DNA of 64,000 nucleotides from Heliocybe sulcata (lineage: Eukaryota; Basidiomycota; Agaricomycetes; Gloeophyllales; Gloeophyllaceae), in NCBI GenBank assembly GCA_004369045.1, contig ML213510.1:302111-366110 (forward strand). The letters run 5' to 3'. A program made the translations under genes and the position numbers. Each line of letters begins with the position of its first letter. The stretch's first letter is position 1. The notes under the pieces were generated by a model. The model made no database searches, was not told the origin of the DNA, and saw nothing but the letters and a program-made list of their open reading frames with translations. Below are positions 27,481-64,000 of this stretch, piece by piece.

Positions 27481-30478
27481 ATGGCCCCTGCACGACCGTC
27501 AAGAGCGAAGGCGCCGCAAGCACCCCTCTACAACGATGACACCGACTCAGGTGACGAGACTGAGCAAGAGACGCCTCGCCCGCAGCGCCAGGGCCTCAAG
27601 AAACGGCTCAGCGAGGTCTACAATCCCGATAATGACCACAGCTTCTCATCGGACCCGGGCAGAGCGCCCTTCAAATCGGTAAACGTCAACGATGACATGG
27701 CGGAGAAACGGAGGAGGAGGAAGAGCACGAAGGGTGGTGTGACGTTGGAGGAGAATGCAGAGGCTGGCCCGTCAGGGGAAGTTGCAGCAGAGTCGTCCAA
27801 GGCTGGCGCACAGGCAAGGCAGAAGCAGCCTTTGAACTCTGTTGCCCAAGTGCCCGCTGTGGATGTTCCATTGGATGTCATGAGCTCGAATTTTGAGGAG
27901 TGGATGAAGATGGCTACCGATAACGTGAGTTGCTCCTGTTCGACCGAGATTGATTCTGCGTCAGTCATATGATGCTATGGAGATCTTATCCTCTTGTCCA
28001 ACCCTCATCTACTCTGTGTTGTGCTCGGGGACTCGGGCATGATTAACGATGCTATATTCCCTAGAAAATCAATGCTACCAATTCATGGAACTTCGCCCTG
28101 ATAGACTACTTCCACGACATGTCCCTCTTGCGCAACACCACCGACAACTCTATCAATTTCCAACGCGCATCTTGTACGTTGGACGGGTGCGTCAAGATCT
28201 GGACAAGCCGAGTCGACAGCGTCGGAACAGAAACCGGAAAGCTCCTTAGCAACCTCGCCACAGACGGTCGACTGGAAGAAGAAGAGGAACCCACGTCGGA
28301 TAATCCTGACCACGATCCCTCCCAACCTAAAAAGCGGGCGAAAGCACACAAGGCGGAGTCGACGCTAGCCAAGAACGCAGCTCAGTTGCGCAGCAAGAAG
28401 CTTGACCTGGAATTCAGCGTCGACCCGTTGTTCAAGAAGACGTGCGCCGACTTCGATGAAGGTGGTGCCCAAGGTTTGCTCATGAACCACTTGAGCTTGG
28501 GGGTTGGCAGTGAAGGGAATATGCGAGTCATTTTTGATGCCAGTGATTCGATGGGCAAGACTGGCGATGAAGAGGAGGATGTCCAGGAACCCGAGGATGA
28601 GGTTGATTTGAGCTATCTGAGATGTAAGAAATATGCTCGTGGTTGTTTCAAGCATGACGTACTAACGCCCGTGCACGGCAGCCCAATTTCTTCCTGATCT
28701 GGACGTGTTGGAAGATAAGGCCATCTCGCATTCGTTAGCGAGCTTTTCCTTCTCTGCAGACTCATTCGCATTCGACGACGCCTTCATCAAGGATAGTAAC
28801 CGTGCCGCCGGACCTGCGCATGAGGACGACGACGACGATCAGAATGACTTTGGAGACTCAGGTGGTTATGATGCGCCCATGGACATGGGCGGCGCTGGTG
28901 AAGAAGACTTTTTCCAAGGAGACCAAGCCGTTGGAGATGATTACATCGGTGACATGCCCCAGGAGGACTTCGTCTCTGGTGGCGATGATAATTCTGTGCC
29001 TGCTGAAGGCGCTCAGGGTGCCCAGACGCGTCCGGGTGGATTTGTACCCTTCGATCCCCGCCGCCCGCCGAACGAGCGCGACCTGATCATGGCGATGACC
29101 GATACCGACGGGGATGGCATGGTGGATTACTTTGATCAAGCCTTCTTGAAGAACTGGGCTGGTCCTGAGCACTGGAAGCTGCGCAAGGTTGTAAGAAAGC
29201 GTGAGTACCTTGAGTGGAGCGCCGCAACGTACGCTGATATTCCCTTGTAGCTGATGCACCTGATGCTTCCGCTCCTAAACCCAGGAAGGAGAAGAAGGAG
29301 GCATTCAAGATAGACTTCCTGACCCCCGCTGAGAAGGATCTGAAAACTCGCTCCCAGGAGCTATTCGCGCCTAGCACCCGCGGCGCAGGTATCAACCTTC
29401 CGAGCACTTCCGGTGCCAAGGGAGGGGCGTCGCGTAAGACGAGTCAAGGTAAGAAGTCCAAGGACAAGGAAGAGAAGAAAGATGAGCACGTCCTACCGGA
29501 CGATATGCACTTCTCTAGCCGACAACTTATCACCTTGTTCTTGAAGCCTCAGTTCTCGGTACGTGATGCCACTCCACTACCTGGATGGTATTGTATACTG
29601 AACTGGTGAGTACAGTTAAGGATGCGTGGGCAACGCTCAATAGATGATCGGGCCGATGGTGAAGTGGACGAGAACTTCTGGGCTCAGGCAGCTGCGCAAC
29701 AAGCCGCGGGACGTATGGGTTCCGACGAGGCGGACGAAAGTGAGTCTGAGTCACAGCCGTGCCTAATTCTCTAAAGTAATGTGTGATCTAGCTGCCGACG
29801 GTGCTATTCCCTTCAATACTCAGTTCTTCCATGATGACTTTGATGATGGGCCTGGCTTCGATGACGTCGACGACGGCCTGGGGGGTTCAAGCGTAGAGCC
29901 TGGCGAGCAAGATCTATTGGCGGCTACTCAGGGCCACGCGCGTCGTGTCAGACCCGAGACTGTCAATTACGCGAAACGGGCTAAGCGCGTGGATGTCCGG
30001 AAGCTCAAAGAGAACATATGGAAGGGTCTTAGCATCGTTGTGCCAGAGGGGAAGGAGCAGGATGAGGACGGTGATGAGTCAATGGCAAGTGGAGAACCAG
30101 CTTCCAGTATTCGTTGCTTACATCTTGTTACAGGAAGTCGATAGAGACGAGGAAGGCACGGATCCGAAGGAGGGGCGGGTCTTCAGCTCAGTCATATCTG
30201 ACCTGCGCACTTCATATCCAAGGGAGAAGATGGAAGAGATCAGCACAAGTTTCTGCTTCATTTGTCTCCTGCATTTGGCCAATGAGCGAGGGCTAAAACT
30301 AGAGGTTGGTAAGGAGCCGGGGATAGACGCTCTTCCCGAAGATGAGGAGCAGCAAGAGGCTTTGAAAGTCGGCGACATATGGGATTTGAAGGTACGTCTG
30401 GGACCGCGGGCATCTGCTCCAAGGTTTCTGACTCTTTGGTAGGTTTATAGGGACCCAGATGCGACCCCCGCTGCATAG
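27481..30478 (+). CDS. BRN1: Condensin subunit Brn1/CAP-H (kleisin)
   Basis: Start ATG 27481. The N-terminal kleisin part is recognisable: SSNFEEWMKMATDNKINATN, SWNFALIDYFHDMSLLRN, NSINFQRASCTLDGCVKIWT, SRVDSVGTETGKLLSNL. Next come LDLEFSVDPLFKKTCADFDE and GGAQGLLMNHLSLGV, then acidic linkers, DMHFSSRQLITLFLKPQFS, and a C-terminal winged-helix part (ISTSFCFICLLHLANERGLK). The end VYRDPDATPAA follows a last intron, with the stop at 30476-30478. Brn1 bridges the Smc2 and Smc4 heads and binds the HEAT subunits in mitotic chromosome condensation. About eight exons. Length (near 800 residues) fits the family. Confidence 0.92.
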
Positions 30479-43274: not shown

Positions 43275-43452
43275 TTACCACTCTGGCCTTTTGGCTTAGA
43301 TCAAGTGTAGTATCTGTTCTTAATAGTTTAACCACTATTATGAGGGCACCGCCCTCATTATTGGTTATCTAATTTTTGCCGCCCTTGACCCTCGAGCTCT
43401 GCTTGCAACTCGGGGGCGCGATGACCTTGCCACTGCACTACAGGCTTGTGTC
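43275..43452 (+). ncRNA. U2 spliceosomal snRNA
   Basis: The 5' third is almost universal U2: GGCCTTTTGGCTTAGATCAA followed by GTGTAGTATCTGTTCTT. The branch-point-binding GTAGTA is at 43307-43312. Stem IIa is TAATAG (43321-43326) paired with CTATTA (43335-43340); stem IIb is TGAGGGC (43341-43347) paired with GCCCTCA (43351-43357). The Sm site ATTTTTG is at 43372-43378. A stem III (CCCTCGAG with ACTCGGGGG, about 43389-43416) and a stem IV loop (ACTGCACTAC, like the U2B'' site) follow. About 178 nt fits a metazoan or filamentous-fungal U2 rather than the very long yeast U2. U2 pairs with the intron branch site and with U6 in the spliceosome. The 5' end is good to a few nt; the 3' end is uncertain by about 10 nt. 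Confidence 0.93.
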
Positions 43453-43687
43453 GTCGGGGGATCCTCCGCTCTCTCTTCGCTGCTTTCCATACGCTGGCAA
43501 TTGTCGGTGCGAAGCATTCAGCGAACGGATTTGCGAGAGGGGTTCTTCAATTTTTAATAATACATAGTCATGGGAAGCGGAATGTAGCATTGATGATAGT
43601 TGTGGACCACGGTGTCAACGTGCTCTTAACCTTCGGAGGATTGGGGTCAAAGATGGGTAGCCCTATATACTGTTATTAGAAACAGCA
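43453..43687. other. Spacer between U2 snRNA and the solo LTR
   Basis: About 235 bp with no gene. It would include the snRNA 3' processing signal, which I cannot assign. Confidence 0.4.
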
Positions 43688-54027: not shown

Positions 54028-55554
54028 ATGTCACGGTTATCGCCTGTCGACACGAAGCATTCCTTCGTTGACTCCCCGACATTTCCTGACCCGGAGCCCG
54101 AGCTGGGCGGCGTCGAGCAGAAGCGCCCTGCTATCGACTATTCGTCCTTCGGCACCTTCCAGGCGTCTGTCTGGCACCGATTTCAATCTCTCTGGACGCG
54201 GAGGTTTATTCTGAGTCTACTCGCAGGCCAGGTCGTATCGCTCTGCATCACCTGCACGAATGTGACGACCACGGAGCTCGTGAACAGAAATTGGAGCTTG
54301 CCGACGACGCAGACCTGGTTCTTGTACTTTTCCCTCTTCGTCGTCTACACGCCGTACACGATCTATCAGTACGGCTTCAAAGGATGGGGCAAGATGATCC
54401 TCCGCGACGGATGGAAGTACGTCTTCCTCGCTGCGTGCGACGTAGAAGGCAACTTCTTGGTGGTCAAGGCGTACAACTACACGACGCTCCTCTCGTGCAT
54501 GCTGCTCGATGCCTGGGCGATACCGGTGTGCCTCTTATTCTGTTGGGTGTACATGCGCACGCGGTACCACTGGACGCAGTTGCTCGTAAGTTCCTTCACT
54601 GTCACCGTCGCTCAGGTGAGTTGATCGCGTTTAGGGCGTGTTGGTGTGTATTGGCGGCCTGGGACTGCTCGTCGCATCGGATCGGCTCACGGATAAGGAT
54701 TACCCCGCACTGAACATGGCAAAGGGAGACGTGTTCATGATCGTTGGGGCAACGTTGTACGGATTCAGTGCGTATACGCACCCTCCTCTTTTCAAATCTG
54801 AGCCTGCTCACTGACTCGTACCATTACTTGGTTAGCCAACGCAACGGAAGAGTTCTTTGTCCGCCGCTCTCCTCTTTACGAGGTCGTAGGGCAGCTGGGC
54901 ATGTGGGGCACGATCATCAACGGTATCCAAGCTGCGGGCCTTGAGCATAAGGATATGACGCAGGTGACGTGGAGCGGGATGAACAGTGCGTTTCTTATCC
55001 TCCTTTGCTCGCTACGAAACTGACGTGCTATGGCTGTGATTCTGCAGTTGGCCTTCTGGTAGCCTACACCGCAGCAATGTTCATCCTCTACACTGTTGCA
55101 CCGCTCTTGTACCGCATGGCATCCTCCGCGTACTATAACATCAGCTTGTTGACCTCAGACTTCTACGGCTTATTATTTGGTACGCACATCCTATGTCGCT
55201 CCCCGTGCGTATTACTCACTTATATGGACTATCCAGGATTATTCCTATTCGTAAGTATCCGCAATCTTATGTTGTCCCAGAGGATGAGACTAATAAGGTT
55301 TGCTGGCGGCATTTACAGCACTATAAGCCGTTCTGGCTATACTTCCCAGCCTTCGCAGTCGTGATTGCGGGGCTGATAATCTATTTCTGGCATGCGACAC
55401 GTACGTTCCTTCTCCCCTTCTCCTTCCCTTCTAGCAGACTCGTACTCAAATTTATTCTTTTGCAGCGGAGGAGCAAGGCAAGCTTGAGCCCAAGGCGCCT
55501 GCGTATGTCCAGCGGAGAGGCGCAGACCAGGAGCGCGTCGCGGGAGACGTGTAG
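54028..55554 (+). CDS. SLC35F1/F2-type solute transporter (drug/metabolite transporter superfamily)
   Basis: Start ATG 54028 (MSRLSPVDTKHSFVDSPTFP). A polar N-terminus is followed by about ten hydrophobic segments, for example RFILSLLAGQVVSLCITCTN, FLYFSLFVVYTPYTIYQYGF, LLSCMLLDAWAIPVCLLFCW, GVLVCIGGLGLLVASDRLTD, VFMIVGATLYGFSNATEEFF, VGLLVAYTAAMFILYTVAPL, LTSDFYGLLFGLFLFHYKPF and FPAFAVVIAGLIIYFWHAT. The wording (EGNFLVVKAYNYTTLLSCML, SPLYEVVGQLGMWGTIINGI, LLTSDFYGLLFG) is that of SLC35F1/F2/F6 relatives (DUF914). Substrate is unknown for fungal members. Seven exons; small introns near 54585, 54770, 54985, 55180, 55250 and 55400. The C-terminal tail is polar and ends AGDV. Confidence 0.87.
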
Positions 55555-63339: not shown

Positions 63340-64000
63340 TTACTTGAGGGGGATGCTGCACGGAGAAGTCAATATATATGAGTCCAGACTGAGGAAGAAA
63401 GGTACACACAATCGAGACGAGTGCGTAGCACCGATACCAGGGCGACCATGCTTGACGGGCTTGTACGAACATGAAAACTCCGCGAGATAGTGGCCAGTCA
63501 TCTCGGGCTTGATCTCAACAGTGTTGAAGACCTGCAGCGGATCTTCAACACCGAACGCCTATGGAAGCCTGACATAGGCGCGAGTACGACTCACCTTGCC
63601 GTTGTAGATACCGACGACGCTGCCAATCATCTCCGGGACGATAATCATGTCACGTAGGTGGGTCTTGACTACAGCAGGCTTCTCATTTGGCGGCGCCTCC
63701 TTCTTAGCTTTCCGGAGCTTCTTGATGAGACCCATGGGCTTGCGCTTCAAGCCCCGCTGGAACCGACGGCGGGCGCGGGCGTGCACGACCTGTTAGATTG
63801 GTTTTACTGCGTGCCTTCCTCTACTGCAATCCGACAGAACTTACCTCCATGAACTATACGATGATGCGGAGTCGTAAGCACAAAATAATAAGTGCTGAGG
63901 ACATGGGGGTGCACACCTCTTCATTGCTCAGATCCAAGAGCTTGTCGAGCTCGATGCCACGGTAGGAGAACGTACGGAACGTCCGCTTCTTCTTGAGGTC
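63340..64000 (-). CDS. RPS15: 40S ribosomal protein uS19 (RPS15), 5' end beyond the window
   Basis: Five exons are visible, from right to left: 63917 to beyond 64000, 63845-63853 (9 nt), 63595-63789, 63410-63531, 63340-63355 (16 nt with stop). Protein: [132 protein letters not shown]. This is the eukaryotic uS19 sequence almost residue for residue; the protein sits in the 40S head and helps pre-40S export. The 9-nt exon restores exactly the residue count found in yeast uS19 at that place. The start codon lies to the right of the window. Confidence 0.95.
63845..63853 (-). other. 9-nt microexon of RPS15
   Basis: TTCATGGAG (Phe-Met-Glu), preceded by acceptor CGTATAG and followed by donor GTAAGT, between introns of 63 and 55 nt. 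Without it the protein would lack three residues that occur in this position of uS19 from other species; the frame would stay open. Confidence 0.85.

Follow-up and report, generated by a model that had tools for sequence, protein, structure and literature searches.

The nine bases TTCATGGAG at positions 63845–63853 on the minus strand of the window (the whole stretch of 64,000 nucleotides from Heliocybe sulcata that was analysed) very likely form a constitutively included coding exon of the gene for the ribosomal protein uS19 (RPS15), with the introns on both sides spliced by intron definition. The sequence of this exon, its splice sites, the reading frame and the fit of the encoded residues to the uS19 family are observed directly, and on these grounds the exon itself is very probably real.

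The greater part of the uS19 gene lies on the minus strand from 64000 to 63340, with its 5′ end beyond the window, and comprises coding segments of 84 (partial), 9, 195, 122 and 16 nt that are separated by introns of 63, 55, 63 and 54 nt (introns A to D). The first segment (63917–64000, the 5′ part of this exon lying outside the window) ends in LSNEE and is followed by intron A (63854–63916; GTGTGC...GTATAG), which carries CTTAC 21 nt before its end and whose retention leads to a stop codon immediately ahead of FME, the three residues encoded by the 9-nt exon. The exon itself has GTATAG before it and GTAAGT after it, the proper acceptor and donor that the preliminary description of the locus had assigned to it, and is thus a microexon in the usual sense: no longer than about 30 nt, flanked by two introns and bordered by usual splice sites on both sides. 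Intron B (63790–63844; GTAAGT...TAACAG), in which the sole CTNAY motif, CTAAC, adjoins the final AG, leads into the 195-nt exon (63595–63789, ending in IYNGK); within this exon, 33 nt downstream of the intron, TTCCAG at 63757–63762 is a possible in-frame alternative acceptor. Intron C (63532–63594) and the 122-nt exon (63410–63531) are given both by the joined frame and by the gene parser described below, intron D (63356–63409) by the joined frame and by the parser except at its highest penalty, and the last coding segment (63340–63355, stop codon included) by the joined frame. This segment had been put forward as a last exon of only 16 nt, which holds for its coding part but not as an exon size, given that the 3′ UTR follows. 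With the microexon, the joined frame measures 426 nt in the window and is open until the stop codon, giving a protein with the C-terminus SSRFIPLK. Intron D has a length divisible by three and contains no stop in the reading frame of uS19: if it were retained, F would give way to a longer stretch ahead of IPLK, adding 18 residues. A scan of the window for tRNA genes and Rfam families at gathering scores returned no tRNA gene and a single Rfam match (U2), and hence no RNA gene within the uS19 introns.

The gene product is uS19 (RPS15) of the archaeal/eukaryotic type: the NCBIfam model TIGR01025 matched over positions 2–135 of 135 with 210.2 bits when the microexon was included and 201.6 bits when it was left out, against a cut-off of 139. 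Pfam PF00203 gave 109.7 bits with and 109.8 bits without the microexon; this match begins past the microexon site and therefore cannot discriminate inclusion from skipping. When compared with uS19 sequences from the PDB, the form containing FME outscored the form skipping it in all of the best 60 of 96 matched sequences, with a gain of 5.0 to 10.4 bits (median 8.7), many of these sequences coming from the same few species and hence not being 60 independent witnesses. A gap of three residues appeared in the skip form in each of the five alignments inspected. Among the same best 60 of 96, the full-length search aligned query and chain over equal spans in 50 cases, with the chain's span 2–3 residues shorter in the remaining 10, while a search with the N-terminal 79 residues alone gave equal spans in all of the best 60 of 87 PDB matches, yeast included. 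Since the N-terminal spans are equal also for those ten chains, the difference of 2–3 residues sits further on and off the microexon. Judged by this span comparison (best 60 of 87), the microexon is required for the protein length of the uS19 family, and the earlier proposal that its inclusion restores the yeast uS19 residue count between NEE and ARARRRF is borne out. The FME residues lie in the N-terminal segment between NEE and the conserved ARARRRF stretch, and the residues opposite F-M-E in five PDB chains are L-R-D, L-V-E, L-R-N, L-M-E and L-V-K. A search for fungal relatives in IMG/VR viral contigs yielded none (no uS19 was found), and the genome contigs searched for uS19 gave at least 27 loci, all titled archaeal and none fungal, which are uninformative on introns.

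The junctions in the region 63940–63744 were enumerated using every GT or GC donor and AG acceptor with introns of at least 30 nt: this covered intronless and single-intron models together with 1474 two-intron combinations and gave 185 models that were in frame and stop-free, each of which was scored as the mean BLOSUM62 value against five uS19 stretches. The TTCATGGAG exon ranked first (387.8), followed by a model with an exon encoding VSS (384.0), whilst skipping reached 373.6; FME itself ranks in the top 2.1% of the 8000 tripeptides for those alignment columns. The contribution of chance was estimated by dinucleotide-shuffling the 127-nt stretch 20,000 times, with its first and last six bases kept in place. 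Under a strict rule (stop-free 9-nt exon, YAG/GTRNGY sites, both introns at least 40 nt) a 9-nt exon arose in 139 of the 20,000 shuffles, and in 5 its residues fitted as well as FME; relaxing the donor to any GT while keeping YAG raised these numbers to 2450 and 70, and accepting any AG and any GT raised them to 3829 and 119, again out of 20,000. When the strict rule was applied to exons of every length divisible by three between 3 and 30 nt, 229 of 5000 shuffles contained one. Thus, a candidate exon by itself is not rare under loose rules, but the combination of residue fit and good sites is. Twin introns, where one intron lies inside the splice signals of another, were also considered for this stretch and ruled out: the nine bases encode uS19 family residues.

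The locus was also analysed without homology by a home-made codon-plus-splice-site parser, run at three penalties on uS19 and on 8 chosen regions (about 30 kb of the 64 kb), with splice matrices that were hand-set and untrained and codon scores taken from 12 stretches of Pfam-positive frames within the window; a self-trained version ended up with 280 introns, among them many obvious errors, and was replaced by the version with fixed matrices. At the middle penalty the parser predicted 38 introns with a median of 56 nt, of which 37 measured 49–71 nt and one 140 nt. Introns A and B, with 63 and 55 nt, are close to this local median, and the site scores from the hand-set matrices are 8.36 for intron A, 9.78 for intron B and 8.69 each for introns C and D, compared to –0.48 for the intron that skips the exon, a value that is almost wholly due to length. 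The parser included the 9-nt exon at all three penalties, yet took another acceptor for intron B. The expectation that standard gene finders would skip the exon is accordingly not matched by this parser, which is itself not a standard finder. The single 140-nt intron belongs to the gene for condensin subunit 2 (27925–28064, plus strand) and is more than twice as long as the local median. A search of it for a hidden exon of 1–45 nt gave four candidates; each of them uses the acceptor GGAG and none is bordered by consensus sites at both ends, and we regard it simply as a long intron.

From these data we infer how the exon would be included in the mRNA: each short intron would be recognised through the pairing of its own two ends, in which case the length of the exon between introns A and B would be immaterial. 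Since both introns are of normal local size, ordinary intron definition suffices, and lengths of 63 and 55 nt give no basis for the preliminary description's appeal to special definition of the exon by the spliceosome. With just 9 nt between the acceptor of intron A and the donor of intron B, full spliceosomes on both at once are improbable; the two introns would probably be removed one after the other, and whichever went first, the remaining one would still be a normal substrate. The exon would thereby supply F-M-E to the N-terminal segment of uS19. As for its origin, the arrangement most likely arose from two insertions, with two introns landing 9 nt apart within a conserved coding stretch. 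In Schizosaccharomyces pombe, work by Romfo et al. in 2000 reportedly found splice sites to be paired across the short introns around a small exon; intron definition is experimental there, whereas for uS19 we infer it. For intron definition, a review describes splicing efficiency as being set by the length of the intron and not of the exon (PMC8624252). In Caenorhabditis elegans, a smaller flanking intron is reported to relieve microexons of their requirement for PRP-40 (PMC8378409): the microexons of that type, as described there, have conventionally long flanking introns, in contrast to the 63 and 55 nt at uS19.

Several other readings of the locus were weighed. Partial inclusion, with skipping being regulated as in switch-like microexons, appears unlikely: the length of the exon is a multiple of three, the branch region of intron B is odd and a glucose-regulated fungal microexon has been reported (PMC11121469), but the span was shortened at this site in none of the best 60 of 87 PDB uS19 matches, and a shorter helical region would probably not be tolerated in an essential ribosomal protein. 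A related and slightly less probable idea is that the packed introns act as a control point for uS19, at which unproductive or shortened forms would be made and 40S assembly adjusted by splicing; the odd placing of the intron B branch, the in-frame downstream acceptor and the skippable in-frame exon may be ingredients of such a control. That the main mRNA simply skips the nine bases, with one intron of 127 nt and a uS19 three residues shorter, we consider very unlikely. The outer splice sites would be unchanged, and the frame does stay open without the microexon over 417 nt and with no stop, as had been pointed out initially; the 140-nt intron predicted in the condensin gene also means that a 127-nt intron is not impossible at uS19. 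Against this stand the lower score with every one of the best 60 of 96 PDB sequences and the three-residue gap in the five alignments, the lower model score (373.6 compared to 387.8) and the intron length itself, 127 nt being around twice the median of 56 nt where 37 of 38 predicted introns fall between 49 and 71 nt.

More doubtful still is the possibility that intron B usually ends at 63757 (TTCCAG), so that FME would be kept but eleven residues lost. This acceptor was preferred by the parser at all three penalties, it places CTAAC at a workable branch distance and the frame remains open (393 nt in the window). The preference is explained by the branch region of intron B, which has no CTNAY at the usual distance: the branch A of CTAAC lies 3 nt from the intron end. 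None of the 38 predicted introns has a CTNAY with its A within 5 nt of the end, whereas 24 have one at 6–35 nt; the motif is absent from this range in the other 14 and in intron C. The parser, however, has no score for a branch A closer to the intron end than 4 nt and could not use the site of intron B, such that both its choice of acceptor and the count of 0 in 38 lean against intron B as written. The eleven residues that would be lost closely match the uS19 of other eukaryotes (VVHARARRR in the best chain), and this conservation favours 63790 over 63757 as the end of intron B; furthermore, no model using 63757 was found among the 14 best of the enumeration. Thus, intron B is best read as ending at 63790, although it may be spliced in a less simple manner than the neighbouring introns. 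The preliminary description had also allowed for another boundary of equal length as the better model, yet the nine-base exon GTAAGTTCT (VSS), second of the 185 models with 384.0, has a practically negligible chance of being used in place of TTCATGGAG: its acceptor ATGGAG and donor GTCGGA give site sums of 4.47 and –0.09 compared to 8.36 and 9.78, and GAG ends none of the 38 predicted introns.

The window contains a second predicted microexon, the 14-nt GATTATTCCTATTC at 55237–55250 (plus strand), which is flanked by introns of 57 and 68 nt in a gene for a transporter of the SLC35F family (54028–55554). The whole gene model matched PF06027 with 336.1 bits over positions 2–297 of 299. The piece around the exon gave 73.2 bits, compared to 58.6 and 62.2 bits for two in-frame substitutes (drawn from 25 in-frame models listed, the reported model among them), and skipping the exon reduced this to 40.5 bits, with the frame shift leading to a stop after two codons: in this gene model, the predicted 14-nt exon is needed for both the frame and the Pfam match. 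Searched against the PDB, the SLC35F fragment gave a single match, which was judged to be due to chance. Elsewhere in the window, the U2 spliceosomal RNA gene lies at 43275–43463 (plus strand; Rfam RF00004, 120.8 bits) and carries GTAGTA near its 5′ end, presumably the branch-pairing bases, and positions 1–119 are 119 N, probably an assembly gap.

Very short exons have been reported from several fungi. In the P450 genes of the white-rot basidiomycete Phanerochaete chrysosporium, microexons are described in nearly a third of the genes, with a shortest exon of 6 bp and frequent introns of 45–55 bp (PMC1184071), and two- and three-nucleotide exons are described in gene models of another white-rot basidiomycete, Phlebia radiata (PMC6540522). 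The uS19 exon resembles these cases in that very short coding exons stand beside short introns, and differs from them in that the gene is ribosomal; both sides of this comparison apparently rest on gene models. In Fusarium CYP621A, a one-nucleotide exon is reported to have been confirmed by RNA reads (PMC12940212). As with uS19, that exon was inferred from conserved protein length together with an apparent intron of excessive length, 139 nt compared to 127 nt at uS19, but its omission breaks the frame, whereas the uS19 exon has 9 nt, leaves the frame open when omitted and is predicted from the sequence. The 20-nt switch-like microexon of Trichoderma Xlr2 is described as glucose-regulated, and its authors state that functional microexons were previously undescribed in filamentous fungi (PMC11121469): it too is a short fungal exon, there absent from the reference annotation, but it has 20 nt where the uS19 exon has 9, and it is located in the gene of a transcription factor. 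Codon-sized microexons are also described for the nank genes of Tuber melanosporum (PMC4986451); these likewise preserve the frame, yet they are many and alternatively spliced in a repeat family, whilst uS19 has one in a gene of conserved single function. In three further reports (PMC4014442, PMC3990503 and PMC8022950) the passages that mention microexons do so merely as a read-mapping option, and no report of a microexon in a uS19/RPS15 gene was found among the matches listed from the openly licensed literature (titles and abstract openings). With fungal exons down to 1 nt already published, the uS19 microexon is ordinary in kind.

The microexon of uS19 leaves the current view of the splicing mechanism unchanged, with no special machinery being required. 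Its lesson is one for annotation: the correct sequence of a core ribosomal protein hinges on nine bases, and as their omission leaves an open frame, it raises no alarm in annotation. Where an apparent intron is around double the local length, this hints usefully, if not with certainty, at a hidden exon.
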